Source: Paulownia fortunei (Eukaryota > Streptophyta > Magnoliopsida > Lamiales > Paulowniaceae). Taken from it: DNA of 64,000 bases. The notes below the pieces were generated by a model. That model saw only the letters and a list, made by a program, of their open reading frames with translations, was not told the DNA's origin and made no database searches. The translations under genes and the position numbers were made by a program. The stretch is taken from NCBI GenBank assembly GCA_019321725.1, contig CM033124.1, forward strand, positions 5,642,001 through 5,706,000, in the 5' to 3' direction. Below are positions 25,673 through 64,000 of this stretch, piece by piece (position 1 is the stretch's first letter; each line of letters opens with the position of its first letter).

Positions 25673-26808
25673 CTTTGCATTTTCAATTTTTTCAAATTTT
25701 CACCCATTTTTCCTATTTTTGCAAAGATAAGTGCATCATTGTCATTTCACCCAAAAGGGGAACTTTTTACATTCTTTTAGTTTTTCACCATTCCTAAGAA
25801 TATTTCAACATTAATTCCAACAAAAAACTATCTCTACAACTATGAAAAGAAAAATTCTAGATCTCGCATCTATTTTTATTGTGGAAATATGATAATCTCT
25901 TTCATTGTAACAATTTTCTATTAAATTCAACATCATTTTACATCAAGAGGTAAAATAAATGAAGAAACAAATTATTTAGCACTTTCTTTCGATACTGATT
26001 AAAATTACATTGCTGTGTTAGAAGAAGGATATCTACATTGATTTGGTATACTATAAAGATGCCCTCGGTATAATATTAACAGTCCTTCATGTGTCCTCAT
26101 GATTTATCTATATTTTTTCTAATTTCTTTCCAAATCATTACATTTTAAAGGTATTTTTGTCATTTTGACCTTCTAAGGATCACTTTGGCATTTTACGTGC
26201 CTTTCAATATTTCCAAATATTTTTGAATACATTCCTGCACATTCTTTATTTTAAGGCATTTATTGGGAATTTTTATTACTTTCCTGAAATTCAAGGATAT
26301 AATTATCATTTTGACCTCCCAAAGGGGCCTTAAGTTATTTTTAGCCATAAGGAAGGGATTTTAGATTATTAACATATTTTTTTGGCATATTAAACCCAAT
26401 AAATATACCATATTTTTAGCATTTTTTCCCGTCAATAACATTTTAATCATATAATTTTTGGTCCTTAGAGGGCACCTTGACCTTGTCACACACATCTTGG
26501 CCTAATAAGGGTATTTTTAGACAAACACCTATACACGATCACATACTTGGTTACTCTATAGTCATTACTCCACACCTAATCTTTTTTCTAAGCATTTCAA
26601 CACATGTCATATACATAGGCATTTTTACATTGTGCAAATATGATGCACTTAGGCATCTTCATACCACATACACTAATATCCATTAGCACGCATGTATTAT
26701 TGCATATGTACATATCTTAATTGTCATTGCATTCCATGAACTATCACCTCAATCATGAATAATTATATGATTTGCTTGCTTGTATTCCCTAATTTTGGGA
26801 ACCTCTCT
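25673..26808. other. AT-rich flank, probably old LTR sequence
   Basis: Contains recurring phrases such as TTTTTGTCATTTTGACCTTC and ATTATCATTTTGACCTCCC that are common in plant gypsy LTRs. No gene. The last five bases before the next element are TCTCT (26804-26808), one half of a target site duplication. Confidence 0.45.
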
Positions 26809-28430
26809 TGATAAGTGCATATTTTGACATATTTTTATATCAAATTCTTTATACTTTTCTTGCTTTATTCTTGTTAATATTATAGTTTTATTAATGTTTT
26901 ATATTAGGGAATCAATGAACAAAAAAGATAAAAAAGAGTCAAAATAAAACCAAAGAAGACAACACGTTTTGCGAGTAAGTTGGAAGATAATATTTTATTG
27001 GATCAAAGAAGCATCACAATTAGAAGAAAACAACCATTTTTGCCTAAGTCTATCATATGTAGATCGAAATATATGCAAGAAATTATTTGTATTTTGCAAG
27101 TGATTTTGGGCTTGCATTATATTCAAAATAAGCATGTTTACAAACTTGTGCACGTTTCATATTTTGGGTATAACTCCATGGTCGAAAGCCTATGGATCTA
27201 AATTTTACTTTATTTGAAAGTCCAAGAGATAGAACTACAACTTTGTTGTTGGAAGGTCAACCCAATTCAACTTTGATTATAGCAAAAAATTCATCTAAGA
27301 GTATATATTGAAAATGATCTATTTATACTGACATATTTTGTTAAATAAAGCATAACGATCTCCGTAGTGGTTGGAATTAGGTAATTCAAGTTGAAAAATA
27401 AAGCTAACAGATAAATACACAATTTCATGTTAATCATTTTTACAAAATTAGCTGATTTTATAGAGAAATATGTATTATAAAATTCAAATCTGAAAAGGAC
27501 ATGTGAATTTAGAGCATACTTGAAGTAATTTTGGAGTGCATTTGGAGTGAATTTAGAGATACCAATTTAAACACTTTTCTACTATAAATAGGGGCTCTTG
27601 GATGTCATTGAACACACACAAAAACCTTTAGAGAGGGAAAAAAAGCTTTATTGTTGCTTTTTTTAGGCTAAGTTTTCTAGTAGTAATGTAAGTTTTCTAG
27701 TAGTAATAAAAATGTATTTTCTAGTTTCTATTTTATTTTTAGTCTTTTCTACTTTTATTATATCTTTCTAAATTTTATTTGGTTGAGGAGAAAGGATGAC
27801 CTCTTGATGGAGAAAGAGGAACGGTTATAAAGGTGCATAATGTTAAGGTGTGTTGTATTATTATTTTAATTTTTTATTGAAATCCTTATTGTTTTGTGGT
27901 GATTCTTGATTCATGTATTATCAATGGTATAACAAATACTTGAGCTCATTTAGCTTATTGTACGACTCTACTACACTGACTGCTAACGTGAAATTTTGAT
28001 TTGTTGTAGATAAAGGTGTGCATAAATATTTGATCCCATAAACAAGTATTAATGTTAAGAGATAATTTGCAAACAGTAAGACAATATCATGATTGCCTTA
28101 ATGCATGAGTTATTTGATAACATATTCCCATTAGAACCTTCATTATGTATGGATTTTGATAGTGACATTTAAAAGAGGTAGAAAGAATGAATAATCGTTA
28201 TTTTATTCAAAATTCAAAAGCGGATCCTTAATCCTCAGTACTTTTATTATTTGGATTTCTTAGTTATAGCATAAATTTTTCTTTATAATCTAAAACATAT
28301 TCAGCCTATCTTTTAAAAAATATAAATCCAAAAATTTCAAATAACTTTCATGTGGATCGACCTCGTACTCACAAAAGATTTATTATTTGACACAACCTGC
28401 ACTTGAGTTTGCAACATTAAAGTTGTAGCA
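26809..28430 (+). repeat. 5' LTR of C1
   Basis: 1,622 bp, TGATAAGTGCATATTTTGAC...AGTTGTAGCA. Contains a TATA box at 27583-27590 and one copy of the roughly 180-bp unit (about 27885-28065) that is duplicated in other C LTRs. Followed by AGTTTTTGG, the start of the primer binding region. Confidence 0.95.
27583..27590 (+). promoter_or_regulatory. TATA box of C1 5' LTR
   Basis: TATAAATA in CTACTATAAATAGGGGCTCTTGG; the same string recurs in the C3 LTR (56907-56914). It is missing from the C1 3' LTR, where a short deletion around 35397 joins AATTTAA directly to CTTGGATG. Confidence 0.65.
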
Positions 28431-28549
28431 AGTTTTTGGATTTATAAATATTTTTCCTTTGTAATTATTGTGTGTTTTTTTCTTTACGGTTATATGTTCA
28501 TAATTATGATACCATATAATTATAATTCTTGTCGTTTAGTTATAAATAA

Positions 28550-30030
28550 TTTTGAAACTTTGTTTGAAAACTTATTTGAGTCACCTCCACATACTTCCAC
28601 GAAGGCTGAAAATAAAAGTGTCCAGAAGAAAAATGATAATCAACAGTTGCGCACCATGCATAATTTCTTGCAATCTCCTCAAAATTCTTCTCCTTGTTTC
28701 ATTTTTTCGCTCAATGCAAATAACTTTCGACATGATCCCTTTACTTCCTAATTTCCATGATATAGACTCTGAAAACCCTTACTTGCATCTGAAAGAATTT
28801 AACGTGCCTTTTTTGAAGAACAAACTTGTACAAATGAGACCGTTAACCTCAAATTATTTCTTCTTTCTTTAAAAGATAAAGCGAAGACTTGTCTTACCTC
28901 TTTAAAACCTAGGTCAATTGGCACTTGGCAAGAAATGCAAGCTAAATTTTTGAAAAAATTCTTTCTAACTCATAAAACTAATTCTTTGAAAAAACAAATC
29001 CAATTTTTATCTCAAAATTCTAATTAAGCTTTCTTTCAATGTTGGGAAAGATTTAAAGATTTGTTGAATTCATACCTATATCATGATTTTGAAAAATGGC
29101 ACTTAATTAGTTTCTTTTATGAAGTTTTAATTCCTGAAACAAAATAATTCATTGAAACAATGTGTAATAGTGAGTTTTTTGCTAAAGAACCTGATGAAAC
29201 CTTACAATATCTAGACTATTTAGCAGAAAACTCTTAATCATAGCATAGTGCTAATTCTTGCGAAGGTTCTATTAGATCTAATTTTGCTAATAGTAATAAA
29301 GAAAAATATTACCTTAGTTAAGTAAATGATCTAAATGCTAGGATTGGTAGTTTAATAAGAAAAGTTGAGGCCATGGAACTTAAATAAGCAAAGAAAACCA
29401 GATTTGTGCAAGATTAACAAGTTTGTAGCATTTGTGAACTTGTGGGACACTCCACCATTAAATGCCCAAATATTCCAGCATAAGCAAATTTCATGAACAC
29501 ATTCAAAAACCCTTTCCATTCTTCATATTCCAAAACTTATAATCCACAATGGAGAAATCATCCCAATTTTAGCTGCCAAGATGAGAATCGTGGCCAACTA
29601 CTGCATTCAACAAAAGCTACCAAACTTTTCTTCTTATCCAGCTCTACAAACAAAATCTCTTGAGGAACTTTGCAATAATTTATGCATGCACAAACAAACA
29701 TAAATAATCAAACTTCACAATCCATCAATGAGATAAAAAACATACTTTTAATATTGACAACCTTTTTGCGTGCTCATGAAAAATGTAAATTTCCTAATCA
29801 ACCTCAATCTAGTCCTTCCACTCAGTATCATGTTTCTTCTTCAAGTAAAAATTCAAGCTAATTTGATCACAACTTTTCAAAATAAAAAAGTTGTTGACAA
29901 GACTATTCATTATAAGGAGAATCTAAAGTCTATAACCACTCATAGACCTCTCTCTCATACTTATGTAACATCTCCACTTTTTCCTAGCAGGTTAGCAATT
30001 TCTAAGAAAAATTAGCAAGAAAAGGAGATC
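28550..30030 (+). pseudogene. C1 gag remnant
   Basis: Matches C3 gag (58107 on). Recognisable pieces: PLLPNFHDIDSENPYLHLKE (28738-28800), NLKLFLLSLKDKAKT-like capsid sequence, and a CCHC zinc knuckle CSICELVGHSTIKC (29432-29473). The expected start codon is changed (ACG AAG at the site aligned with C3's ATG) and several frames are broken. Nucleocapsid role is inferred from the CCHC motif. Confidence 0.8.
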
Positions 30031-30138
30031 ATTGAGACTTTTCAAAAAGTGGAGGTAAACATTCCTCTTCTTGATGCGATCAAGTAGGTGCCTCGATATG
30101 CTAAGTTCCTCAAAGATCTATGCACTAACAAATAGAAG

Positions 30139-30657
30139 TTGAGAGAGGATGAAAAAGTTAGTGTAGCAGAGAATATTTGGGCAGTTTTTCAAAGAAAATT
30201 CCCTCCAAAGTTTAAGGATCCGGGTACTTTTACCATCCCTTGTACCATTGGTAAGTTCAGATTTGAAAAATGCATATTAGATTTGGGAACATCAATTAAT
30301 GTTATGCCATATTCTATTTATGTTTCTCTAAATCTAAGACCTTTAAAAGAAATTGGTGTTATCATACAATTGGCTAATAGATCTAATGCACATGCAATAG
30401 GGGCTATGGAAGATGTTCTTGTGCAGGTGAATGAATCAGTTTTCCCTGTTGATTTTTATGTTCTTGAGATAGAGGATGATACATGCCCTAATCCTACACG
30501 CATTCTTTTGGGAAGACCATTCATAAAGATAGCCCGAGCTAAGATTAATGTTCATGATGTCACTCTTACTATGGAGTTTGATGGTGAGGTTATAAAATAT
30601 AATATTTTTGAAGTCATGAGATATCCTACTAATGTGAATGTTTTTTTTTGTAGTTAA
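30139..30657 (+). CDS. C1 retropepsin-like protease (open frame)
   Basis: 172 codons without a stop, the only long intact frame of this element. The catalytic region reads ILDLGTSINVMPYSIY (D-L-G-T-S in place of D-T/S-G), typical of Athila/Tat-type polyproteins. The flap side and ILLGRPFIKIARAKINV near residue 125 complete the fold. Family enzymes cleave the gag-pol polyprotein. The ATG at 30139 is internal to the original gag-pol frame, so translation from it is doubtful. Downstream pol is broken. Confidence 0.85.
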   Translation: MREDEKVSVAENIWAVFQRKFPPKFKDPGTFTIPCTIGKFRFEKCILDLGTSINVMPYSIYVSLNLRPLKEIGVIIQLANRSNAHAIGAMEDVLVQVNESVFPVDFYVLEIEDDTCPNPTRILLGRPFIKIARAKINVHDVTLTMEFDGEVIKYNIFEVMRYPTNVNVFFCS

Positions 30658-31440
30658 CATTATTGATCACAAGTCACAATAAATGCTTGAGTTTACTGCC
30701 AAGGATGGAATGGAGGTTACTTTACAAAAACATCTCCTTATAGAGGATTTGAAGAAAAGAAGTTGGATGTGCAAATGTTGGGGGATGTGGAAAATGATGT
30801 AACGAGGCTGGATTCGTTGTCGAAAAAAAATCAAGGTATGATGTCTATTATGTTAAATTGCCAATATTTAATGAGAGACTTCTACCTTCTATGGTGCAGA
30901 CACCTACAATGGAGCTTAAACCAATTCTGGACTATCTTAAATATGTCTACTTAGGTGAAAAAGAAATGCCACTAGTCAGCAATTGCTAAAGACCTCACTC
31001 AAGTACAAGTGGACAAACTTATTTGGGTACTTCGAAATTATAGGAGGGTGATTTGATGGACGATAGATTTGGTAACATATGTTCATGAGTGATGAAGGAG
31101 GCAATGTTGGGTTGAGGATATTAAACCAAGTGATTGATAAAAGGCAATCCAACGGATGGAAAAGAAGACTTTGAGAGCCAATAATCACAGATTTATTTTC
31201 TCTAGCTCTCATTCTCTTTTCCTTTTATCCATTATTTTTTTTTACTTTTTTCCATTTTATTTTGTCCTAATCAAAGATGCGTACTGATAATGTGGTAGCT
31301 AGTATTTTTTTAAATTTTGTCATGAAAGAGCACATGGTTTTCAACAAAGAAACTGCTGCAAAGATCTTGTAGTGTGGATTTTATTGACCCATTCTTTTCA
31401 AAGACACTTGCACTTTCTGCAAAAGTCATGAAAATTATCA
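30658..31440 (+). pseudogene. C1 pol fragments (pre-RT and integrase zinc end)
   Basis: About 30840-30965 encodes the KLPIFNERLLPSMVQTPTME / LKPILDYLKYVYLGEKE linker upstream of RT; 30985-31060 gives VQVDKLIWVLRNYRRVI. The RT catalytic core, RNase H and most of the connection are missing. At 31325-31440 the sequence matches the C3 integrase HHCC region (KTAAKIL...FFKDTC). The DDE core is absent: by 31450 the sequence is already the post-pol AAGTGGCGGATAA region. Confidence 0.75.
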
Positions 31441-31582
31441 AAAATTAGAATCCTTCACGATTAAGTGGCGGATAATGGTACTTCATAGCTATTGAAATCA
31501 GACTTATCAATTTCCTAGATGACTAAAGTCTCTGTACAAAGTTTCTTTCTTTTTCTCATTCTTTTTTCTTGTTCTTTTCAAA

Positions 31583-32190
31583 ATGGATGACATTATTGTA
31601 ACTGTCAAGAAGCAATTTTCTTTTATTACTAAAAATGTAATTTTAAAAATTTAAAAACTCATGATTGAAAGATTAAGGATGCTTATGCATAGGGCATCCC
31701 AAGGGACATATAATGGATAATTGAAGTAAAGGTAAGACAAGCGGGTGAGTTTTCAAACTTGCTCAATAGATACATGCCTAGTTTTGGTAAAAACACATAT
31801 TTAAAAAAATAAAGGGCAAAAAAATATAAGTTTTTCACAAATGTGCTCGATGGACTTGCAACACAATGTATTGTTCCTTTAAAAATCAAGGAGATAAAAT
31901 TCAATTCATTATGAATGGATAGAGTAAGGAGTCTTTATATGATATTATATTGACTTTTGAGGAGCATTCATGTAGATTAGTACAACGTGTAATTCTTGAT
32001 TTATGGAATCACTTCCGTGATGAATATGAGCGTTATAGTATTGGGAATCTGATATTAAAAAATCTTGTTTGTCAGTTTATAAGAAACTACATTGGAAGCA
32101 TATCCTCGATCCATAGAGGGCGTTTAAGCTATTATTAGACATAAAACCAGAGAAAGATGTAAGCTACAGTCACAACTATGTAGTTAATTT
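31583..32190 (+). pseudogene. Unidentified conserved frame between pol and LOG, C1 copy (ORFx)
   Basis: Begins ATGGATGACATTATTGTAAC just downstream of the GGCGGATAA...GTACAAAGTTTC block. The same sequence occurs at 53602-54204 and 63021-63660, always between pol and LOG. Comparison of the three suggests a former frame of roughly 190-200 codons with WIIEAN and LWNHFRDEYE-like segments, now full of stops and shifts. I do not recognise a family. No membrane segment stands out, which argues against an envelope-like protein. It may be a second captured host fragment or an element-encoded frame. Confidence 0.55.
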
Positions 32191-32319
32191 TTTTTTCAAA
32201 CTTTGTGTCCTTATTTTAAAACTTTCTGATAAAAGAAAAAGACATGAAATAAATATATTCCCTGTTCACACCTCAATAAATAGCACCGTACTTACTCACT
32301 TTAAAAAAAAAGAAAAAAA

Positions 32320-32970
32320 ATGGAAGGGTCTTCCTCTTGCAAGTTCAACTGTATTTGTGTCTTTTATGGAACCAATCCAAGAAAAAATGGTGAGTATATA
32401 GGGGTAGCCAATAACCATGGTAGAACTTTAGCAGAAAGAAAAATTCATTTAGTGTGGGAGGTAGTTTGGGGTTAATATGGAGTGTTGTTACTTCTGCTCA
32501 TGTAGAAGGAATCAAAGTTTTTAGGAGTTATCCTAAAATCTTTAACAATACAGAATATCCCTGGTATGACTATAGGAGATTAGCTAAAAGTGTCACATAT
32601 TCATGACAGAATGCCTAACATGTTAAACAATGCAGATGCATTTACCACTCTACCTTGTGGTTTTGGTATACTGGAGGAATTATTCCAAGTTGTCTCTCAG
32701 GAATAATTCAACATTCACCAGAAACTTGTAGGTATTCTTAATGTTAATGGTTTCTTTGATGGTTTGTTATCTTTTGTAGATTATGCTGTAGAAAAAGGTT
32801 TTATTTTGCTGTCTGTGAGACGAATTCTCATTTTTGCTCCAACATCTGGGCAACTGATTGATCAACTTCCAGCTTATATATCAGAACCTAATCCAACCTT
32901 GGCTCATGTGGATTGGTCTAACAAGGACAATTGTCAAAAAAGCAAAATGAATTGGATTCTTATCATGTGA
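32320..32970 (+). pseudogene. LOG-like cytokinin riboside 5'-monophosphate phosphoribohydrolase, captured, C1 copy
   Basis: Family enzymes release active cytokinin bases from their nucleotides in the plant cytosol. The frame begins ATGGAAGGGTCTTCC and shows FNCICVFYGTNPRKN (LOG N-terminus has K/R-I-C-V-F-C-G), GRTLAERKIHLV, then a frameshifted glycine loop, IHDRM, ADAFTTLPCGFGILEELFQVV (the PGGxGTxxE motif degraded to PCGFGILEE), GILNVNGFFDGLLSFVDYAV and a C-terminal VRRILIFAPT. Total span is 217 codons, the usual LOG size. Compared with C2, a 4-nt deletion near 32457 and a 1-nt insertion near 32528 shift the frame; stops lie near 32579 and 32702. No introns. Non-functional. Confidence 0.88.
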
Positions 32971-34643
32971 AATTTATCCTTAATAGTTTGAACTAATAGT
33001 GTATATACCGTGTTGTTTCAGCTTTATTTTCCAATAAGTCACATTTCAGGCAATATCTTCTAAACTCTACTTTTCTATCTATTTTCGACATTGGGGACAA
33101 TGTCTCGATTAGGTTGTGGGAGGGGATAGTTGATATCATGTCTTATGTGTTTAATGTGTGTTTTTCTATTTTTTTAAATAATTTCAAGTGTGTTTTATTT
33201 TGTGTCCATTGAAACCATGAAAAAGGGTGGTAGAGTAAAAGGTAACTTTAACACTCTTGAGACGTATCCCTATATTTGTTTTCCATAACATGCAAGTTTG
33301 TGAAGTTTTTAACAAAAAATTGTGAATTGTCAATTTTTTTTTAGTCGAAGATGTTCTTCCAACTTCAATGATTAAAATTAAGTACGAATAATGTGGTTTG
33401 ATTGATGATGAGTGTTGCTTTAGACTTTGATGTTGTTCTTTGGCTAATATATTTTGGTAATAATTATACTCAAATCTTTTTACACAAATAGTTATGTTAT
33501 TCACTATGAAGGCAAGCATGTCAAAATAGGTACTTCTTGTGCTCTCGCTCTAATCATCACTTGGATTTTCAATAGGTAGGGGTTGAGTATTAGAACTTTT
33601 CCTTTTGGTCTATCGAGGCAAACAACTAATTAAGCACCACTTGAAAAATGATTGAGCCATTACACTTTCTAGCACCATGGCCAATTCAGCTTATTTCCCA
33701 TGCGATGTTCCAAAAGAACATTCCCTATAGTGAGCCACTTTGAATCTGTCAATACCTAGCCTAAATATACTATTATCCCACCCTTGTTCTAAAAAAGATT
33801 TAGAGCTTAAGAAACATTCCATTGATAAGGTAAGTTTGTAAAAAAAATTGGGTTGGAATAGAAGATAAGTGTGGGGGAGTTTCTTCTTTTAAAAAAAATA
33901 TTGCAAAATGTTAAAAATATTATAAGTTGCAACTAAAAATGGATTGTTGCATAATCAATAAGAATGATGAAGATGGGTCCACTTCAATAACAATAGGCCC
34001 CAGTATTAAAATTCGTGGAGTATGAGAATTTTTTAATGAAAAACTCTATGTCTCTAATCTCATGAAGTTTTTATACCATTTGTTGCATCCTATCATTTTA
34101 TTTTTTAGCCACATCACTACCCTTTGGTTCCATTACAACCTTTGTTGAACACCTTTTGATTTCGTGTGATGCTTTCATTATAGTGGAGATTTATACCAAA
34201 TGAAGAGCCTAATATGTTTAACTTTTCCATTAGAGATTGCATGATGGTTTTTGTGAGGTTCTATGGGAACTTACTTATTTGAAGCATGCATGATTTCATC
34301 ACTATTGACAGTAACTATTCACACACATACTTGAGTATGCTTATTGTGGAAATGTATTGACTTTTAAATAACTAAGGGTTAGATTCAACACTTGTTTGAT
34401 TTTATTTCTATATTATTTTATTGCTTCCTAAAAATAATAATTGGAAGTTAGTTATCATAAGCGTTTGTGGGTATCATTACTAGAAACCCTCACGAGACTA
34501 TAACTCATCATCTATGGACCACCTAGAGGTTTAAAGAGTTGTTGCATATGCTAAATACAATCGTGATTTCCTACAAAAGTAGATTAGTTTAGGTTTGTTT
34601 TAGACTTGTTCGAGGACGAGCAAGGGTTAAGTGTAGGGAAATT
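32971..34643 (+). other. C1 3' untranslated region and polypurine tract
   Basis: Non-coding. Contains GACATTGGGGACAATGT (about 33089-33105) followed by GGGAGGGGAT, a conserved landmark of Athila/Tat 3' regions, and an AAGTGTGGGGGAG-like purine run near 33868-33880. The tract before the LTR is AAGTGTAGGGAAATT (34629-34643). Minus-strand frames such as 33184-33519 are chance. Confidence 0.7.
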
Positions 34644-36168
34644 TGATAATTGCATATTTTGATATATTTTTTGTATCAAATGCTTTATACTTTCCTTGTT
34701 TTATTCTTGTTAATATTATTATTTTATTAATATTTTGTGTTAGGGAATCAATGAACAAAAAGAAAAAAAAAGAGCCAAAATAAAACTAAAGAAAATAACA
34801 TGTTTCGTGATCAAGTTGGGAGATAATATTTCATTGAATCAAAGAAGCTTCATAATTAGAAGAAAATAGCAATTTTTGCCTAAGTCTATATAGTATAGAT
34901 CAAAATATATGCAAGAAATTATTTGAATTTTGCAAGTAATTGTTGGGCTTACATTATATTTAAAATAAGCATGTTTTCGGACTTGTGCAGTTTTTGTATT
35001 TTGGCATAAGTTCATGTTCAAAATCTCTATTCACCTAAATCTTACTTTATTTGAAAGCTAAGAGATAGAACTACAATTTTGTTGTTGGAAGCTCAGCCCA
35101 ATTCAACCTTGATTATAGTAGAAAATTCACCAAAGTGTGTGTATTGAAAAATATCTATCTATTCTAACACATTTCCTTAATCAATCATAACATTCTCCTT
35201 AGTAGTTGGAATTATGTGATTCAAGTTAAAAAATGAAGCTAGCAAATAAATGCTTTTTTATTAATCACTTTTCCAAAATCAACTAATTTTATGGAGAAAA
35301 ATGTGTAAAAAATTTGGATTTGAAAATGACATGTGAATTTAAAGCATATTTAAAGTAAATTTGGAGTGCATTTGGATTGAATTTGGAGATGCTAATTTAA
35401 CTTGGATGTTATTGAAGACACAAAAATACCCTTAGAGAGGAAAAAAAAGCTTTATTATTGTCCTTCTTTAGGCTAAATTTTCTAGTAGTAATAGAAATGT
35501 ATTCTCTAGTTTCTCTCCTATTTTCAGTCTTTTCTACTTTTATTATGTCTTTCTAAATTTTATTTAGGTGAGGAGAAAAGGTGAACCTCTTGATGGAGGA
35601 AGAGGAACAGTTATAAAGATGTATAAACCCTCCTTATTTTGTGGTGATTCTTGATTTATATATCACCGATGGCACAACAAGTACTTGAGTTCTTTAGTTT
35701 TGTGTACGGTTCTACTACACCGACTGCTAACATGAAACCTTGATTTGTTGTAGCAAAGATGTGAATAAATACTTGATCCTATAAATAAATATTGGTGTTA
35801 AGAGATAATTTGCAAATAGTAAGACAATATCATGACTACTTTAATGCATGAACTATTTGATAACATCTTTCCATTGGAACCTTCATTATGTAAGAATTCT
35901 AATAATGGCATTTAAAAGATATGAAAAGAATAAATAATAGTTTCTCTATCCAAAACTCAAGAGCGGATCTAATCCTCAGTACTTTTATTATTTGAATTTT
36001 TTAGTTATAGCATAATTTTTTCTTTATCTAAACTATATTTAGGCCATCTTTTAAGAAATATAAATTCAAAAACTTTAAACAACTTTCCTGTGAATCGACC
36101 TCGGATTCACAAGAAATTTATTACTTCACACAACCTGCACTTGGGTTTACAACCTTAAAATTATAGCA
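34644..36168 (+). repeat. 3' LTR of C1
   Basis: 1,525 bp, TGATAATTGCATATTTTG...AAATTATAGCA. About 100 bp shorter than its 5' partner, including loss of the TATA-box segment; one copy of the 180-bp unit. Divergence from the 5' LTR is clear by eye, so the insertion is not recent. Followed by TCTCT. Confidence 0.95.
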
Positions 36169-36360
36169 TCTCTCTATTAAAATTTCTTCTAACTTTCGTG
36201 ACTTAATTCTACTTTATGTTCATTTTATCACATACTCTCTATACTCTTTCTTACACATTCTTCCAACTTTCGTGACTCAATTCCACACACGTTTCGATAT
36301 ATATTTTCTCAAATATATCTTTTTGAAACACTCACAAATATCACATATTTCTCATGGTTA

Positions 36361-41831: not shown

Positions 41832-43171
41832 TGCTACAACTTTAAGGTTGCAAACTCAAGTGCAGGTTGTGTCAAGTAATAAATTTATTGAGAGTCCGAG
41901 GTCAATCCACAGGAAAGTTGTATAAAGTTTTCAAGATTATATTTCTTTAAAGATAGGCTTTATGTGGTTTATAATATAAAGAAAAAATTATGCTATAAGT
42001 AAGAAATCAAAGTAATAAAAATACTAAGGATTTGAGATCCGCCCTCGATTTTTGGATAAAGGAATGATTATTTATTCTTTTCACTTTTTCGAAATGCTAT
42101 TATTGAAATCCATACATAATGAATGTTCCAATAGAAAGATGTTATCAAATAACTCATGCATTAAGGTAATCATGATATTATCTTACTGTTTATAAATTAT
42201 CTCTTAACACCAATACTTGTTTATGGATCAAGTATTTATGCACACCTTTGTCTACAACAAATCAAAGTTTTAGGTTAGTAGTCGGTGTAGTAGAAATGTA
42301 CAGTAAGCTAAATGAACCCAAGTATTTATTGTGTCATTGGTAATATAAAAATCAAGAATCGCCACTAAACAAGAAGGGCTTTAATGCCAACACTTATTTA
42401 TAGGATTAAGTATTTATGTATACCTTTGTCTACAACAAATCAAGGTTTCACGTTAGCAGTCTGTGGAGTAGAAACGTATAATAAACTAAATGAACCCAAG
42501 TATATATTATGCCAATGGTGATACATAAATCAAGAATCACCACAAAATAAGGAGGGTTTTAATGCCAATACTTATTTATGGGGTTAATTATTTATGCACA
42601 ACTTTGTTTATAACAAATCAAGGTTTCACATTAGCAATCAGTGATGTAGAACTGTAGAATAAGCTAAATAATCCCAACTATTTGTTGTGCCATTGGTGAT
42701 ACATAAATCAAGAATCACCATAAAATAATAATAGTTTCAATCAAAAATTGAAACAATAATACAACACACCTGAACATTATGTACCTTTATAACCATTTAT
42801 CTTCCTTCATCAAAAGGTTCACACTTTCTCCTTAGCTAGATAAGATTTAGAAAGATATAATTAAAGTAGAAAAAACTAAAAATAGAAGAGAAACTAGAGA
42901 ATACATTTCTATTACTACTAGAAAACTTAGTTTAAAGAAAGACAACAATAAAGCATTTTTTCCCCTCTAAAGGTTTTTATATGTCTTGAATAGAAAACTT
43001 ACATTACTACTAGAAAACTTGGCTTAAAGAAAGACAACAATAAAGCTTTCTTTCATCTCTAAGGACTTTATATATCTTGAATGTCATCCAAGAACCCTTA
43101 TTTATAGTAGAAGAGTGTCTAAATTGGTATCCCCAAATTCACTTCAAATTTACTCCAAATTAATCTTGTCT
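41832..43171 (-). repeat. Truncated family C LTR with three tandem units (C4)
   Basis: Minus orientation; TGCTACAACTTTAAGG is the reverse of the C LTR end. It runs back to about 43171 (CTCCAAATTAATC), lacking the LTR's first several hundred bases. It contains three tandem copies of the 175-180-bp unit (around 42210, 42386 and 42566; each with ATCAAGAATC(A/G)CCA and CAACAAATCAA). C1 LTRs have one, C3 has two. Confidence 0.85.
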
Positions 43172-53601: not shown

Positions 53602-54204
53602 GGTTACCTCTAATTTTCTTTCTAAAAATGCAATTTTAAAAATTTATAAAACTATTAAGGATGCTATGCAGAAGGGCATACTAGGGGATATACGATAGAT
53701 AATTGAAGCAAATGTAAGAGTAGCTGGTAAGTTTTCACATGAGTTTTTAAACTTCCTTACTAGATACAAGCCTGGTTTTGGTAAAAGTACATATTAAAAA
53801 AATAAAGGGCAAAAAAAATACAAGCTTATCACAAATGTGCTCGATGGACTTGCAACATAAAGTGTTATTCCTTAAGAATGATTTCTAAAAATTGAGAAGA
53901 TAAAATTCAATTCATTATGAATGGATCGAGCAAGGAGTCTTCAGATGACATTATATTGACTTTTAAGATGTATTCATGTAGATTGGTACAGTGTGCAATC
54001 CTTGATTTATTGAATCACTTCTGAGATGAATATGAGTGTTATATTGTTGGGAATCTGACATTAAAAGATCTTATTTGCTAGTTTATAAGGAAACTGGATG
54101 AGAAGCATATCCACAACCTATAGAGAGCATTTAAGCTGTTACTAGATAAAAAATTAGAGGAAGATGTGACTCACAATCACGACTACATGTACATTCAAGT
54201 GTAA
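53602..54204 (+). pseudogene. ORFx, C2 copy
   Basis: Second copy of the unidentified frame that precedes LOG. Its start is lost at the junction with element F; it ends in GTG TAA at 54202-54204. Stops and shifts differ from those of C1 and C3, showing independent decay. The positions matching LWNHF read LLNHF here. No family recognised. Confidence 0.55.
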
Positions 54205-54374
54205 ATAGCTAATGTTTAAATTTTATGTCTTTATTTTCAATATTTCTAACAAAATAAAAAGATGTGCAATAAATACATTCCCTGTTCACACCTTAATAAA
54301 TAGCACCATACTTACTCTATTTTTGCACAACTCATTTTCTCACAAAAAAGAAAAAAAAGAGAAAAAAGAAAAAA

Positions 54375-55028
54375 ATGAAAGTCTCTTCCACTTGCAAGTT
54401 GAACTGTATTTGTGTCTTCTGTGGAACTAATCCAAGAAAAAATGATGAGTTTATAGGGTAAGCCAACAACCTTAGTAGAACTTTAGTAGAAATAAAAAAT
54501 CATTTAGTGTATGGGGGAGGCAGTCTGGGGTTAATAGGGAGTGTTGTTACTTCTACTCATGTAGGAGGAGTCAAAGTTTTAGGAGTTATCCCAAAATCTT
54601 TAACAATACAGAATATCATAGGCATGACCATTAGAGATGAACTAAAAATATCACATATTTAAGATAGAATGTTGAGCGTGTTAAATAATGTAGATGCATT
54701 CATCACTCTATCTGGTGGTTTTGGTACACTGGGGGAATTATTCCAAGTTATCTCTTGGGCACAACTCAACATTCATTAGAAACCTGTAGGTATTTTTAAT
54801 GTTAATAGTTTATTTGATGGTTTGTTATCTTTTGTAGATCATGTTGTTGAAAAATGTCTTATTTCATCATGTGCGAGACAAATTCTCATTTTCGTTCCAA
54901 CACCTGACCAATTGATTGATCAACTTCTAACATATATGCCATAACCTAATCAAGCCTTAGCTCGTATGAATTGGTCCAATAGGGACAATGGTCAAAAAAA
55001 TAAAATAAATTTGACTCTCAACATGTGA
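54375..55028 (+). pseudogene. LOG-like gene, C2 copy, colinear with four in-frame stops
   Basis: The best preserved copy: 218 codons in one frame from ATGAAAGTCTCTTCC to ACATGTGA with no frameshift, about the size of plant LOG proteins. Motifs: LNCICVFCGTNPRKN at residues 9-23, VYGGGSLGLIGSV (glycine loop, GGGSxGLxG) near residues 49-61, LGVIPKSLTIQ, then [14 protein letters not shown] near 118-131, matching PGGxGTxxE except P to S and the first E to G. PVGIFNVNSLFDGLLSFVD follows. Stops interrupt after the start third (GGG TAA), at CAT ATT TAA, CAT TAG and CCA TAA. Intronless. Cytokinin activation is the family role; this copy cannot make a full protein. Confidence 0.9.
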
Positions 55029-56035
55029 AATTTATTCTTAAAGGTTTCAACTAATAGTGTATACACTGTGTTTCAACTTTATTTTCCAATAAGTCATATT
55101 TCAGGTGATATCTTCTAAACTTTACTTTCCTATCTAATTTTGACATTGGGGATAATGTGTCGATTAGATTGGGGGAGGGGTTAATTGATATCATATCTTG
55201 TATGTTCAATGTGTGTTTTTCTTGTAAGAAAATTTCTTTTTCAAGCATGTTTTCTTTTGGGTCCTTTGAAACTATGAAAAAGCATAGTAGAGTAAAGGGT
55301 AGCTTTAACACTCTGAGACATACTCCTATTCTTTTTTTGCATAACATGACAAGTTTGTGAAGTTTTTAACAAAAGTTTGTGAATTGTCAAGTTTTTTTCA
55401 GTCGTAAATGTTCTTCCAACTTTAATGATTAAAACTAAGTATGAATAATGTGGTTTGATTGATAATGGGTGTTGTTTTAGACTTTGATGTTGTTATTTGG
55501 TTAATATATTTTTTGTGATAATTATACTCAAATCTTTTTGCACAAGTAATTATGTTATTTGGTGTGGAGACAAGCATGTCAAAATAGGTAGTTCTTATGC
55601 CCTCGCTTTAATCATCACTTGAATTTTCGACATGTAGGGGTTAAGTGTTAAAATTTTTTATTTTGGTTTATCGAGGCAAACGACTGATTAAGCACCACTT
55701 GAAAAATGATTAAAACATTATGCTTTCTAGCACCATGGCCAAATCAGCTTGTTCCCCATATGTTATTCCAAGAGAACATCCCTCATAGTGAGCCACTTTG
55801 AGCCTTTTAATAAATAAGCCTTTTTCTATGGTAACCATATATTCTTATCTAACCAAAATATATTATTATCCTAACCTTATTCTAAAATTAATTTGGAGTT
55901 TAAGAGACATTCTATTGATAAGGTGAGCTTCCAAAAGAAATTTGAATTGGAATAGAAGATAAGTGTGGGGTAGTTTCTCTTCTAGATAAAACAAAACTAA
56001 AAAAACAAACAAACATAAAATTAAAAAAATAAAAA

Positions 56036-56142: not shown

Positions 56143-57930
56143 TGATAAGTGTATATTTTGACATATTTTTGTATCAAATCTTTTATACTTTCCTTGCTTT
56201 ATTCTTGTTGACATTATAGTTTTATTAATTTTTTGTGTTAGGGAATCAATAAACAAAAAGAGATAAAAAAGAGCCAAATTAAAACCAAAGAAGACAACAC
56301 GTTTCATGAGCAAGTTGGCAGATGATATTTCATTAGATCAAAAAAGCATCATACTTAAAAGAAAAGGGTCATTTTGGCCTGAGCCCATCATGTGTAGATC
56401 AAAATATACGCAAGAAATCACTTGGACTTTGCAAGTGATTGTTGGGCTTGCATTAAATTAAAAATAAGCATGTTTTTAAATTTATGCAGTTTTTGTATTT
56501 TGGGCATAACTTCATGTTCAAAAACCCTATGGACCTCAATCTTACTTCATTTTAAGTCAAGAGATAGAACTACAACTTTGTTGTTGGAAGCTCAACTCAA
56601 TTCAACCTTGAGTATAGCAAAAAATTTGTCCAAATATCTGTATTGGAAGGGATATATCTATGCATACACATTTCCTTAAATCAAGCATAACTTTCTCCCT
56701 AGTGGTTGGAATTAGGTGATTCAAGTGAAGTTAATAGCAAATATATACTTTTATGTTGATCACTTTTCCAAAATCAGCTAATTTCTTGGAACAAATATGT
56801 GACAAAATTCAAATCTGAAAAGGAGATATGAATTAAAGCATATTTGAAGTAAATTTGTAGTGCATTTGGAGTGAATTTGAAGATATCAATTTAGTCACTT
56901 TTCTACTATAAATAGGGGCTCTTGGATGTCATTGAAGACATACAAAAACCCTTAGAGAGGGAAAGAAAGTTTTATTATTGTCTTTCTTCAAACTATTTTC
57001 TAGTAGTAATGTAAGTTTTCCAGTAATAATAGAAATGTATTCTCTAGTTTTTCTTTTATTTTTAGTCTTTCTACTTTCATTATGTCTTTCTAAATTTCAT
57101 TTATCTAAGGAGAAAAGGGTGAACCTCTTGATGGAAGAAGAGGAATAGTTATAAAGGTGCATAATATTTAAGTGTGTTCAATTATTATTTTAATTTTTGA
57201 TTGAAATCCTCCTTGTTTTGTGGCGATTCTTGATTTATGTATCATTAATAGCACAACAAATACTTGGGTTCATTTAGCTTATTGTACGATTCTACTACAC
57301 TGATTGCTAACATGAAACCTTGATTTGTTGTAAACAAAGGTGTGCATAAATACTTAATCCTATAAATAAATATTGGCATTAAAACCCTTTTTGTTTAGTG
57401 GTGATTCTTGATTTATATATCACCAATGCCATAACAAATACTTGGGTTCATTTAGTTTATTATACGATTCTACTACACTGACTGCTAACGTAAAACCTTA
57501 ATTTGTTGTAGACAAAAGTGTGCATAAATACTTGATCGTATAAACAAGTATTAGTGTTAAGAGATAATTTATAAATAATAAGACAATATCATGATTGCCT
57601 TAATGTATGAGCTATTTGGCAACATCTTCCCATTGAAATCTTCATTATGTATGGATTCCAATAGTAGCATTTAAAAGAGGTAAAAAAAATAAATAATTGT
57701 TCGTCTATCCAAAACTCAAGAGCGAATTTCTAATCCTCAATGCTTTTATTATTTTGATTTCTTAGTTATAACATAGATTTTTCTTTATATTCTAAACCAC
57801 ATCTAGCCTATCTTTTAAGAAATATAAATCGAAAAACTCCAACAACTTTCCTATGGATCAACCTCGGAGTCCCAAAAAATTTATTACTTGACACAAGCTG
57901 CACTTAGGTTTGCAACCTTAAAGAATATCA
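56143..57930 (+). repeat. 5' LTR of C3 with two tandem units
   Basis: 1,788 bp, TGATAAGTGTATATTTTGAC...GAATATCA. The TATA box is at 56907-56914. Two copies of the 176-bp unit at about 57208-57383 and 57384-57560 (each with GTGGNGATTCTTGATTTAT and CGATTCTACTACACTGA) explain the greater length relative to C1 LTRs. Confidence 0.92.
56907..56914 (+). promoter_or_regulatory. TATA box of C3 5' LTR
   Basis: TATAAATA within CTACTATAAATAGGGGCTCTTGGATG, identical in context to the C1 5' LTR. Confidence 0.6.
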
Positions 57931-58106: not shown

Positions 58107-59196
58107 ATGACTGAAAATAAAAATATCCAGGATGAAAATGAGAATCAACAGGTATGTACGTTGCGTTATTACTTGGAACCTCTTTGAAATTCTTCTCCTT
58201 CTTGTTTAATTTTTTCTCTCAATGTAAATAACTTTTGGTTCAAGCCAGATATGATCCCTTTACTTCCTAATTTTCATGGTTTATACTCTGAAAGCCCTTA
58301 CTTGCATCTGAAAGAATTTGATGAAGTATGTGCCACTTTTGAAAATCAAACTTGTACAATTGAGATTGTTAAGCTCAAATTATTTCCTTTTTCTTTAAAA
58401 GATAAAGCAAAAACTTGACTTAACTCTTTAAAACCTAGGTTAGTTGGCACTTGGCAAGAAATACATGCTGAATTTTTGAAAAAATTCTTTCCAACTCATA
58501 AAACTAATGCTTCAAAATGACAAATCCCAATTTTTTCTCAAAATTCTAATGAAGCTTTGTTTTAATGTTGGGTAAGATTTAATGATTTATTGAATTCATG
58601 TCCACATCATAGTTTTGAAAAATGGTGCTTAATTAGTTCTTTTATAAAGGTTTATATCCTAAAATGAAATAATTTATTGAAATAATGTGTAATGGTGAGT
58701 TTCTTGATAAAAAACCTAATAAAGCTCTAGAATATCTAGACCATTTGGTAGAAAACTCTCAATCTTGGCATAGTGTTAATTCTTTTAAAGGTTTTATTAG
58801 ATCTAATATTGCTAATAGTAATAAAGTAAAATATTACCTTAGTTAAGAAGATGATCTAAATACTAAGATTGCTAGTTTAACAAGAAAAGTTGAGGTTATG
58901 GAACTTAAAAAAGTAAAGAAAATTTGATATGTGCAAAATGAAAAAGTTTGTAGTATTTGTGAACTTGGGAGACACTCCACCAATGAATGCCCAAACATTC
59001 TAGCACAAGCAAATGTCATGAACACATTCAAAAAGATTTTTCATTATCCACATTTTGAAACTTCCACTCAGCGTCATGTTTCTTCTTCAGGTGAAAATTT
59101 AATTAAGGAGGCTAATTTGATCACAACTCTTCGGAATGGAAAAGTTGTTAACAAGACTTTTCATCCCAAGGAGAAAGTTTCTAATCCACCTTTATA
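58107..59196 (+). pseudogene. C3 gag
   Basis: ATGACTGAAAATAAAAATATC at 58107 fits the position after the primer region. Visible pieces: PLLPNFHGLYSESPYLHLKE (58261-58320), TFENQTCTIEIVKLKLFP, KDKAKT, and the CCHC knuckle CSICELGRHSTNEC (58949-58990; C-x2-C-x4-H-x4-C intact). Stops occur near 58417, 58519 and 58844. Capsid/nucleocapsid function is inferred from family. Confidence 0.83.
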
Positions 59197-59469
59197 AATG
59201 AAGAATGGAAATAGTCTTGACGATGAAGGTAATTTGATGAAGGTGAGTTTGAAAATGATGAAAAAGAAAAATACTCACCTCTAGCTCATTTTTCCTCAAA
59301 GATTGCAACCGAATCAAAACTTGAACTCAAATGCTAAATTTTTGAAAGTTTTTAAACAAGTCAAGATTAATATTCCATTGTTAGTTGCAATCAGGCAATT
59401 TCCACCTATGCCCAATTTTTGAAAGATTTGTGTACAATTAAAAGAAAACATCATATATAAAAGAAGATA

Positions 59470-62400
59470 TTTTTTTATTGAAAGTGTTAGTTCAATCATT
59501 CAACAATTTACTCCACCCAAGTACAAAGATCCAGGTTATCCAACTATTTTATGTACTATAGAAAATACTAGAATAGAGGGTACTTTGCTTGATCTTGGTA
59601 CTAGTGTAAATCTTCTACCTTTCTCAATTTATGAACAACTAGATTTGGGAGAACTTAAAATAATTTTCATTGTACTCCAACTAGCTAACTATTCAATTAA
59701 AGTTCCAAAGGAGTAGTAGAAGATGTGTTGGTACAAATTGATAAGTTTTACTTTCTAGTGGATTTTATTATTTTAGACATGAGCATGTTGCACATACACA
59801 TAAATATATTCCTATTATTTTTGGGTCGTCCTTTTCTTGAAACTTCAAACGCTCTCATTAATTTTAGGAATGATACTTTGAAATTATCTTTTGGAAATAT
59901 GACTTTGGAACTAAATGTGTTTAATGTTTGTAAACAACCTGCAGAAGATGTCGAAGTACAGAAAGTGGATTCAATTGAGGAACTTGTTCATGACTAATTT
60001 TTTTGATCCTTTGGAAACTTGTTTTGAAAGTGAAAGAATTTGTAAAAAGGCGCACTTAATACTGTATCTGAATTTTCACAGGTACAAGAGAAACATTTTT
60101 GGAAGCCAATGTTTGAAGAACTTTCATCATCAGCAGTACAGTCTATTCCATCAAGTATTAACGCTCTCATGATTGATTTGAAACCTGTCATTTAATTCAA
60201 AATACACTTTTTTAGGTGAGAATGAAACTTTTTCAGTAATAATTTATTCCAAATTTGATACATCACAAGAAAATAAGCTGATCGAAACTTTAAAAATGCA
60301 TAAGAATGCTTTAGGATGGATCATAGCTGACATTAAAGGTATTAGTCCTTTAATTTTACACACATAACACCTATTTAGAGGAAAATATTAAACCATCTAG
60401 AGAGATGCAACGAAGGCTAAATCCTAATATGAAAGAAATAGTGAGAAATAAAGTTATCAAACTCTTAGATAATGGAATCATTTGTCATATTTCTGACAGC
60501 ATATGGGTAAGTCCTACTCAAATTATACCTTAGAAATCTGGAGCTACTGTAGTCAAGAATGAAAATAATGAGTTAATTTCAATTATGCCTGTTACTGGTT
60601 GGCGAATATGCATTGACTATAGGAAACTCAACTCAATTACTAGAAAATATCATTTTTCCATTACCTTTCATGGATTAAATCTTAGAAAGAATTGCGGGAC
60701 ATAAATTTTTCCTACTTATTAAATGGATATTATGGGTATAATCAAATTGAAATTACACTTGAAGATCAAGAGAAAACTACTTTTACATGTCCTTTTAGTA
60801 CTTTTGCATATCGAATGATGCATTTTGGATTATGTAATACACTAGCTACATTCCAACAATGCATGTTTAGTATTTTTAGTGATATGGTTGAACATTTTCT
60901 TGAAGTTTTCATGGATGATTTTTCTATTTTTGGTAATTCATTTGATTGCTTGTCTAATTTAGAAAAGGTTTTGATCAGATGTGAAGAAAAGAACATTGTA
61001 CTAAATTGGAAGAAATGTTATTTCATGGTAACAACTGATATTGTTCTTGGACACATTATTTCATCAAAAGGTATTGAAGTAGACAAATATAAAATCATGT
61101 TAATTGCCAATTTACCAATATCAAAGTTTGTGAAAGAGGTAAGATCATTTTAGGACATTGTGTTTTTTATAGAAGATTTATCAAAGGTTTTAGTATAATA
61201 TCTAAACCTTTGTGTAATCTTCTAACAAAAAATATTATTTTTGAATAGACTGAAAATTGTGAAAATACTTTTGTTAAGCTTAAAATCATGCTTACGTCTG
61301 CTCTAATTATGCAGCCTCCAAATTGAAATTCATATTTTGAAATAATGTGTGATACCAGTGACTGTACTGTTGAAGTTGTCTTATGACAAAGAAAAGATAA
61401 GAAATCATATGTTATTTACTATGCAAGTAAAATATTGAATAGTGTTCAATTGAATTATTCAACAATTGAAAAAGAATTACTTGTTGTAGTTTTTACATTA
61501 GACAAATTTAGATTTTATTTTGTTGGCTCACTAATTGTTGTTTTCAGTGATTATGCAGCTTTAAAATATCTTTTATAAAAAAAAAGATGCCAAACCTATA
61601 CTAATTATGCGGATTCTCTTACTCGAGGAATTTAACATTACGATCCGAGATAAGAAAGGAGTAGAGAATATGGTGATTAATTATTTGTCGAGACTAGTTT
61701 GTGATGACTCATTTCAAACCACACCCATTAATGACACTTTCCCTAATGAACAACTATTTAATGTTTCTATTTTATCTTGGTTTGCTGACATTATTAATTT
61801 TCTTGTGACAGGAAAGATGCCACCACATAGGAATTCTTAAGATAAAAAAAAAATTAACCAAGGTAAAAAACTTTTATTGGGATGTTCCATACTTATTCAA
61901 ATATTGTACTAATCAAATCTTTTAGAGATGTGTGCTTGACAATAAGAAATGTAATATTCTTAAATTTTGTCAATCAGGAGCATGTGGTGGTCACTTTTCG
62001 GTAAAGAAAACCGCTGCAAAGATCTTGTAATGTGGATTTTATTGGCCAACTTTTTTCAAAGACACTTACACTTTCTGCAAAAATTTTAAAAGTTAGGATC
62101 CATTTCAAAGCGAAACATGATGGCCCTACACCCCATCCTAGTGATTGAAATCTTTGATTGTTGGGGTATTGACTTCATGGAACCATTTCTATTATCATTT
62201 GGTTTTATTTACATATTGGTCACCAAAGATTATGTCTCAAAATAGATCGAGACAATTCCCGGTTAAAACACAAATCATAAAGATTGGTCTCTTAGACTTA
62301 CCAAAATATTTTGAACATATAGAACCACTTCAAAACATCATTAGGCATGTCTCCTTATAGGATAGTTTATGAAAAACCTTGTCATTTACCTCTTGAACTT

Positions 62401-62818
62401 GAACATAAAGCTTGTTGAGCAATCAAAATGTTTTAACTTCAACCTTGATGAAGCTTCTAAATTGCGCAAATTGTAAATTAATGAATTTCAAGAATTGAGA
62501 AATGATGTATATGAAAATTCTAAAATACATAAAGCAAAAATCAAAGAATTTCATGATAATAAAATTTCAAGAAAAACATTTGAGGTTGGTCAAAAGGTCT
62601 TGCTTTATAATTCTCATTTGCATTTATTTTGTGGAAAATTGAGATCAAGGTGGAGTGGTCCTTTTATTGTAAAAAAGATATATCTTTATAGGGTGATTGA
62701 TATTGTGAATCCTAAAAATGGTAACGTATTCAAAGCAAATGGGCAAAGACTTAAAACCATTTCTATAGAATCAATTTTTATAAGAGGAATTATTTTTTCT
62801 AACTCTTGTTATGATTAG
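59470..62818 (+). pseudogene. C3 pol: protease, RT, RNase H, integrase
   Basis: Protease LLDLGTSVNLLPFSIY (59585-59635) and LGRPFLETSNALI; RT from about 60380 with WRICIDYRKLN-like start (60600), DQEKTTFTCPFSTFAYRMM, FGLCN and VFMDDFSIFG (catalytic DD at about 60912); RT end to 61153. RNase H follows from about 61320 (CDTSDCTVEVVL, NYSTIEKELLVVVFTLDKF), then VENMVINYLSRL (61640-61700). Integrase: zinc region 61980-62090, DCWGIDFMEPF (62155-62187), then a deleted DDE core, and an intact C-terminal frame 62495-62818 (KARIKEFHD-type, RSRWSGPFIV). No chromodomain. Stops and shifts throughout; the integrase core deletion alone would disable it. Confidence 0.87.
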
Positions 62819-63020
62819 TATGTGTATATATATACAAATTTTCTCTAATTTTGTTTGTTTTGTAGGTTTTCTTTCTTTTATTTTTATTTTTTTCCCGACT
62901 AAGTGGCGGATAACGGTACTCCGTGGCTATTGAAGTCGAATTTATTAGTTTTCCAAACAACTAAAATCTTTGTACAAAGTTTCTCTCTTTTTCTTATTCT
63001 TTTTTCTTGTTCTTTTCAAA

Positions 63021-63660
63021 ATGGATGATATTATTCTAACTCTCAAGAAACAATTTTCTTTTCTTCCTAAAAATGCAATTTAAAAATTTATAAAATCAGG
63101 ATTGAAAGATTAAGGATGATTATGCACAAAGACATCCCAAGGGACATACTATGGATAATTGAAGCAAATGTGAGAGTAGCATATGAGTTTTCATACAAGT
63201 TTTCAAACTTGCTTACTAGATACATGCCTGGTTTGGTAAAAGTACATATTCAAAAAAAAATAAAGGGAGAAAAAAATGCAAGTTTGTCATAAATGTACTC
63301 GATGGACTTACAACATAAAGTATCATTCCTTATTAATGGTTTTTAAAAATTGAGAAGATAAAATTCAATTCATTATGGATGGACTGAGTAAGAAGTCTTT
63401 CGATGACATTGTATTGACTCTTGAGATGTATCCATGTGGATTAGTACAACTTGTAATTCTTGATTTATGGAATCACTTTCAGAATGAATATGAGTGTTAT
63501 AATCCTGGGAATTTGACATTAAAAACCTTATTTGCCAGTTTATAAAAAACTGGATGAGAAATATATCCTTGACCCATAAAGGGCGTTTAAGCCGTTGCTG
63601 GACGTAAAACCAAAGAAAAATGTGAGTCATAGTCATAACTATATGTACATTCACATGTAA
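63021..63660 (+). pseudogene. ORFx, C3 copy
   Basis: ATGGATGATATTATTCTAAC to CACATGTAA. It occupies the same place as in C1 and C2, after the GCGGATAACGGTACTCCGTGG block and about 150 bp before LOG. Readable pieces include MHKDIPRDILWIIEANVRVA and LLTRYMPG. Frames are shifted and stopped. Because it is conserved in three copies yet matches no retrotransposon protein I know, it is either an element accessory frame or a second captured fragment. Confidence 0.55.
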
Positions 63661-63812
63661 GCAGCTAATTTTCCAATTTTATGTCATTGTTTTCAACCTT
63701 TTTGATAAAAAAAAAAGACATGCAATAAATACATTCTTTGTTCACACTTCAATAATTAACACCGTACTTATTCTATTTTTGCACACTCACTTTTGAAAGA
63801 AAAAGAAATATA

Positions 63813-64000
63813 ATAGAAGTCTTTTCCTTGCAAGTTTAATTGTATTTGTATCTTTTGTGGAACCAATTCAAGAAAAAATGATGAGTTTATAGGGGCAGTC
63901 AATAACCATGGTAGAACTTTAGCAGAAAGAAAAATTCATTTAATATATTGGGGAGCCAGTTTGGAGTTAATGGGGAGTGTTGCTACTTCTACTCATGTAG
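63813..64000 (+). pseudogene. LOG-like gene, C3 copy (5' part; window ends)
   Basis: Colinear with C2 from its start to about codon 63. The start codon is ATA instead of ATG (63813-63815) and 2 nt are missing before the TGC AAG codons, so the reading frame is broken at the beginning. Then CKFNCICIFCGTNSRKN, GRTLAERKIHLIYWGASLEL (the glycine loop GGGSLGL changed to WGASLEL) and MGSVATSTHV follow. The rest lies beyond the window. Confidence 0.85.

Follow-up and report, generated by a model that had tools for sequence, protein, structure and literature searches.

What does a LOG gene, the gene for a cytokinin-activating enzyme, do inside a plant retrotransposon? This question is raised by positions 32320-32970 of the window, by which the whole analysed stretch of 64,000 nucleotides is meant, where a sequence-only reading had seen a LOG-like sequence near the 3' LTR of a gypsy element and had proposed that the element family had captured a host gene. 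The answer that we favour, with evenly balanced confidence, is that a gypsy-type family with an intronless LOG is present in the window in three copies, all dead, and that the open relatives of this LOG in other eudicots are likely element-borne and would encode a retuned nucleotide-cleaving enzyme that is tethered to TOPLESS.

Three LOG-bearing blocks in the window

With stops read as X, copies A and B (Table 1) matched the Pfam family PF03641 (Lysine_decarbox) with E-values of 1.4e-23 and 4.9e-27, respectively; both belong to this family by their scores, the higher being 95.1 and the lower 83.9 bits where 27 is the cut-off. Copy B was also found to align gaplessly with the Arabidopsis LOG 2a33 (residues 11-207, that is, 197 residues; E 1.9e-47). 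A tblastn search of the window with an open relative returned LOG at 32320-32961, 54381-55025 and 63832-63999, plus a single chance row (E 1.0). When 31401-34700 was shuffled 20 times, 0 shuffles matched at 1e-3. The LOG-like sequence at 32320-32970 is thus real and full-length, and the suggestion that this interval and 54375-55028 would match PF03641 and plant LOGs was borne out. The PGGxGTxxE loop of copies A and B carries substitutions, and their tails have decayed.

Self-comparison of the window revealed LTRs at 26808-28430 and 34643-36168 and showed that the LOG-bearing block occurs three times, namely at 31454/31621-33898 (A), 53614-55991 (B) and 62892-64000 (C). Element A, the complete ends of which had been noticed from the sequence, starts with TG at 26809 and ends with CA at 36168, and TCTCT flanks it on both sides; it thereby shows the TG...CA LTR pair and the target-site duplication of a Ty3/gypsy element. 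B is a relic block. In C, the 5' LTR is followed by gag-like, protease-like, RT, RNase H and integrase-like sequences and then by LOG. The order of RT before RNase H is given by Pfam matches, and the stretch beyond them that lacks such a match we take to be integrase-like from its position and motif. The LTR at 56143 is read as the 5' LTR of C and not as the end of B, because a purine tract is absent just upstream and the internal region of C follows. The family in the window is presumably Athila-like in look. The proposed capture of LOG by a gypsy-type family is supported by these three co-linear copies, which are intronless and have their flanks in common.

Table 1. Positions of the elements, their parts and the LOG relics in the window
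Feature	Position	Strand	Basis or remark
5' target-site duplication of A, TCTCT	26804..26808	.	5 bp
Element A, complete-ended, non-autonomous, gypsy-type, with LOG cargo	26809..36168	+	LTR pair and target-site duplication
5' LTR of A	26809..28430	+	K2P 0.173 against 3' LTR, 1521 ungapped columns, alignment taking in 7 bases beyond the LTR end
gag fragment of A	28803..29027	+	Pfam Retrotrans_gag, E 1.5e-10
Protease-like ORF of A	30136..30657	+	Asp_protease_2, E 0.0057, below cut-off
LOG relic A	32320..32970	+	Full-length, intronless; in-frame stops; compared with B, 4 bp deleted and 1 bp inserted
3' LTR of A	34644..36168	+	Purine-rich stretch directly upstream (putative polypurine tract)
3' target-site duplication of A, TCTCT	36169..36173	.	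5 bp
Relic B, LOG with flanks, co-linear with A	53614..55991	+	79.6% identity to 31621-33898
LOG relic B	54375..55028	+	218 codons, terminal stop counted; interrupted by four internal stops
5' LTR of C	56143..57930	+	Self-comparison; no upstream purine tract
gag-like stretch of C	58332..58550	+	71% aa identity to gag of A
Protease-like ORFs of C	59423..59997	+	tblastn to the protease-like ORF of A; without Pfam match
Reverse transcriptase of C	60686..61153	+	RVT_1, E 7.8e-13
RNase H of C	61387..61578	+	RT_RNaseH, E 1.4e-15
Integrase-like region of C (presumed)	62145..62818	+	Position and motif; without Pfam match
Block of C common to A and B, running into LOG	62892..64000	+	79.5% to A; 80.5% to B over 63059-64000
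5' part of LOG relic C	63832..63999	+	Cut off at window edge; matches P0001 over residues 8-63 (73% aa identity, E 2e-22)

The idea that a host LOG merely adjoins LTRs, or was split by their insertion, has proximity as its sole argument. It is contradicted by the co-linear flanks, present on both sides in A and B and on the visible side in C, and by the LTRs and target-site duplication that bound A, and we consider it next to impossible.

A pol remnant had been placed upstream of the LOG of A, and only a protease-like ORF was found there: queried with the ORFs of C, A gave no match to RT, RNase H or the integrase-like region. The protease-like ORFs of A and C share just 36-51% aa identity, whereas LTR and gag of the two are close, and that of A apparently comes from a gypsy lineage other than that of C. 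Given this divergence and the lack of C-type RT, RNase H or integrase-like matches, A looks like a chimeric non-autonomous element. In the window self-comparison, the middle of A (29539-31453) had no blastn match to C, and the make-up of A is as if it had been born by template switching between two families.

Other remnants lie between A and B. An LTR of the same family, inverted and with a tandem duplication inside it, lies at 41832-42992 and seems to have no internal region. Pieces of another gypsy pol (RT, RNase H and integrase-like), 43-49% identical to C, occupy 43123-45064, and minus-strand ORFs at 48319-49968 look, by their motif, like putative copia pol fragments.

As to how the gene was acquired, a gypsy-type family may have taken up a copy of a spliced LOG mRNA during reverse transcription, most simply once and before the sampled lineages split. 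Capture from mRNA is suggested by the gapless match over 197 residues, whereas host LOG genes, as counted in peanut, mostly have 7 exons and 6 introns (accessible text of PMC13257298).

Decay in the window and open relatives outside it

Copies A and B are dead, as is the visible part of C, where ATA stands in place of the expected start codon, and no intact LOG protein is encoded by them as they stand. The K2P distance between A and B is 0.188 in LOG, 0.223 in the flanks before it and 0.177 in those after it. Since the LOG value is close to the divergence of the two LTRs of A (0.173), the copies were near-identical at insertion, each with its LOG already in place. The two LOGs differ to much the same extent at first, second and third codon positions (37/216, 37/215 and 32/216), and no trace of selection was found in the LOG copies of the window, which have thus, to judge from these counts, decayed freely since insertion.

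Relatives were sought among predicted proteins, a database that favours open copies. A search with copy B returned 52 proteins, the best of which were twelve proteins of 217 residues at 67-71% identity, four of them from Paulownia fortunei; Orobanche accounted for 14 rows of this search. The best 120 of 6689 rows of a profile search, the profile of which itself included the tail described below, comprised 18 rows from Reevesia pubescens, the locus names of which bear 12 different chromosome prefixes (and the clusters of which have 114 members, of one or more species), 6 from Diplodiscus, several from Populus (some named LOGL10), Rehmannia and many ENA/JGI contig proteins. Reevesia and Diplodiscus (now Pityranthe) belong to the Malvales, Paulownia and Orobanche to the Lamiales, and Xanthoceras to the Sapindales. 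The 154 proteins from the copy B search and the best 120 of 6689 were reduced to a clade set of 142: by name and sequence, seven named ordinary LOGs were transferred to the ordinary set, and another five, P0050 and P0052-P0055, were excluded. The ordinary set (n=123) consists of these seven and 116 new proteins from the best 120 of 7998.

Trees were built from representatives of the clade (30) and of ordinary LOGs (14), to which PDB, Sapindales, bacterial and window sequences were added; for the careful one, of 54 rows, the pocket columns were masked and the tail was removed. In this tree, a branch with support 99/98 sets all 30 representatives of the clade, together with A and B of the window, apart from the remaining rows. 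A forms a pair with B (100/94), the pair joins P0001, an ENA protein 98.6% identical to a Paulownia one (100/97), and these group with Rehmannia and Orobanche (100/98). A quick unmasked tree agrees. On these trees, the window LOG belongs to one clade with the often multicopy, open LOGs of Lamiales, Malvales and Populus (P0083 lies inside). The host of the window is probably a plant close to Lamiales. The nearest sequences beyond the clade are P0053-P0055 from Xanthoceras, tailless and with His97, Lys100 and Glu125 all retained, and Acer P0052, in which Lys100 is kept, position 97 is Asn, the Glu125 stretch is absent and the end is a basic KRRKLD. These sister sequences may be host genes or early element copies, and P0053-P0055 are a possible host relative of the captured gene. 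P0053-P0055 are predicted proteins with two LOG domains in a row and an ordinary pocket.

The decay of the window copies bears on the notion that LOG was transduced once as functionless cargo. Neutral decay is what a passive passenger would show, and gene capture by LTR elements is known (accessible text of PMC7264820). However, Lamiales-group and other clade representatives are full-length and open although the two sets share a mean of 51% aa identity, with catalytic residues and tail mostly conserved, which makes a mere passenger very unlikely. The reading that we favour has LOG retained as an extra gene, the protein of which would help the element.

Full-length single ORFs on short contigs suggest that the relatives in the clade are intronless, and the open relatives in other eudicots are likely also carried by retrotransposons. 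That they are instead host genes, either dispersed retrogenes or tandem copies, with the lineage in the window alone residing in a retrotransposon, would agree with the scans of viral contigs (two) and genome contigs (one), none of which gave a plant relative; the 22 loci of the genome contigs scan were all bacterial by title and served as an outside control for the pocket residues. Against host retrogenes stand the high copy number in several genomes and the occurrence of YgdH in the Gypsy consensuses of both Citrus and Populus trichocarpa (accessible text of PMC9289625), Populus members being part of the clade, and this account appears highly improbable to us. If the relatives are element-borne, many LOG or LOGL10 annotations in Reevesia, poplar and other such plants would stand for mobile-element genes, which matters for counts of the LOG family and for cytokinin genetics. 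In Populus, 13 LOG genes have been counted in a paper the accessible text of which has no word beginning with "transpos" (PMC3866579).

Catalytic and pocket residues of the clade

For CgLOG, a catalytic role has been proposed for Arg99 and Glu122; the adenine site consists of Met96, Lys100 and Glu121, and the prenyl site, which is identical in AtLOG3, of Met96, His97, Lys100, Glu125 and Trp129 (accessible text of PMC4979012). The catalytic pair is largely retained in the clade: Arg99 was found in 133 of the 142 listed members (lost in 9/142) and Glu122 in 135/140. The phosphate loop is kept in most listed members, and the full PGGxGTxxE motif is present in 102 of the 128 listed full-length members and absent from 26. 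The pocket has changed. Lys100 is replaced (by Leu, Met, Ile or Val) in 142/142 listed clade members, whereas all 123 listed ordinary LOGs have Lys; Glu125 has given way to His or Gln in 136/139 and is Glu in 0/139, as compared to Glu in 121/123 listed ordinary LOGs; and His97 is lost in 116 of 142 (kept in 26), whereas it is His in 123/123 ordinary ones. Met96 (111/142) and Trp129 (129/139) are found in most listed members. The five-residue prenyl site of the AtLOG3 type is not seen in the clade. Its members resemble plant LONELY GUY (AtLOG3, 2a33; AtLOG8, 1ydh) in fold, PGGxGTxxE loop and catalytic Arg and Glu, but differ in that Lys100 and Glu125 are replaced in nearly all and His97 in most, and in the added basic LxLxL tail; the LOG of the window is moreover intronless and element-borne.

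According to one explanation, the protein is a plain cytokinin-activating LOG, with which the element would make active cytokinin and so favour dividing cells for insertion. The LOG fold, the presence of Arg99, Glu122 and the phosphate loop in most members and the frequency of Trp129 agree with it, but the changes at Lys100 and Glu125 in nearly all members and at His97 in 116/142 alter the very prenyl pocket that is proposed for CgLOG and identical in AtLOG3, and we regard this explanation as rather unlikely. Since pocket-lining residues have changed in the open relatives, cytokinin is not safe to assume as substrate. The earlier suggestion that the element could have altered cytokinin levels is weakened by this change of the adenine and prenyl pocket and by the broken state of A, B and the visible part of C.

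Whether the altered pocket spares activity can be weighed from two sides. Alanine substitution of AMP-binding residues of CgLOG, Lys100 being among those named, nearly abolished activity (accessible text of PMC4979012), so that an enzyme that has lost Lys100 could be weak or even dead. Among the bacterial LOG-like loci with a readable motif, Leu takes the place of Lys100 in 7/17, and the change of Lys therefore need not kill the enzyme; the place of Glu125 is occupied in these loci by Glu (18/22), Asp (3/22) or Thr (1/22). The seven loci with Leu (L008, L010-L014 and L016) keep Glu at the Glu125 place. Wheat LOGs with the same critical residues form different products (accessible text of PMC11593424), so that residues alone do not fix the substrate. 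An altered substrate of the clade proteins is predicted from these replacements: in the reading that we favour, rewriting of the pocket would have changed the binding partner, and the nucleotide-cleaving activity would have been retained.

The C-terminal tail and its counterparts

The clade proteins carry a basic tail with an LxLxL that resembles the EAR repression motif. A strict LxLxL end was found in 115 of the 128 listed full-length clade members (minimum length 205 residues), as against 0 of 121 listed ordinary LOGs (minimum length 195 residues). A recount of tails and residues gave the same figures. The 13 members of 128 without the exact tail are eight from Orobanche, of which seven end in -FLSL or -FISL and one is shortened, four in which one Leu is Ile or Phe, and P0123. 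Across the clade representatives other than P0021 (29 of 30), the tail forms an island of conservation beyond a variable linker, with Lys at -10 and Leu at -1 in 29/29 and strict LxLxL in 24/29. The AlphaFold model has the LOG fold with a pLDDT of 87.5, the last 16 residues being mostly below 50, and an earlier model (pLDDT 76.8) matched 2a33 with a Foldseek E of 2.9e-21. The low pLDDT of the tail, which is mostly disordered in the model, is in keeping with a short binding motif.

EAR motifs are known in the forms LxLxL and LxLxLxL, and AtZP1 has LDLELRL (accessible text of PMC9956375), to which the C-terminal motif of the clade is close. Proteins with an EAR motif are transcriptional repressors, whereas the clade protein is enzyme-like and belongs to a mobile element, its binding of a co-repressor through the tail being a prediction from the motif. 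In the reading that we favour, the added tail would allow nuclear entry and tethering to the host TOPLESS co-repressor. A further-reaching version, in which a long-lived eudicot gypsy lineage turned a captured LOG into a nuclear effector of its own, a nucleotide hydrolase of LOG fold with a new substrate and delivered to chromatin by its TOPLESS tail, and so steers host hormone state or silencing in those cells in which it transposes, is speculative and rather improbable.

The tail also permits the view that it is all that matters and that a pseudo-enzyme, with the LOG dimer as scaffold, presents LxLxL to TOPLESS and thus redirects or blunts host transcription or silencing. Such a role would suit a conserved island after a variable linker and the loss in 142/142 listed members of Lys100, one of the AMP-binding residues of CgLOG. 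A dead enzyme would nevertheless have no need of the catalytic Arg and Glu that 133/142 and 135/140 members retain, and we consider a pseudo-enzyme unlikely.

The sequence-only reading knew of no described plant gypsy family with LOG cargo, which has proved wrong: a LOG-type YgdH domain has been listed in Gypsy consensuses of Citrus sinensis and C. clementina and, with a looser filter, of Populus trichocarpa, with Steinbauerova 2011 cited for YgdH in Gypsy (accessible text of PMC9289625). Among the literature matches listed, as judged by title, start of abstract and term counts, this was the only paper that seemed to describe a LOG inside a retrotransposon, while both words occur in others of these matches. 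A look through the accessible text of PMC7264820, PMC11963269, PMC6338049, PMC11728184 and PMC6317226 by terms gave no mention of LOG cargo. Like the window, the Citrus and Populus cases are plant Ty3/gypsy elements with a LOG-family domain besides gag-pol; they are listed at the level of domains, and clade, pocket change and tail are unmentioned in the accessible text of PMC9289625. Unlike them, the lineage of the window copies is closest to Paulownia (Lamiales). The single clade, the pocket change and the LxLxL tail appear to be new, as none is mentioned in the literature matches listed and the text read, which take in few subscription papers; they may be in print elsewhere.

Extra ORFs of plant gypsy elements most often have no known conserved domain (accessible text of PMC9289625). 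The accessible text of the same paper describes a Phalaenopsis Gypsy with an ORF for an AlkB m6A demethylase, likewise a captured host enzyme kept as an extra ORF; there the enzyme is a different one and its activity was shown in vitro, whereas the LOG cargo is known here from its sequence. As an extra gene with a known ancestor, a known reaction and clear derived changes in pocket and tail, this LOG is directly assayable.
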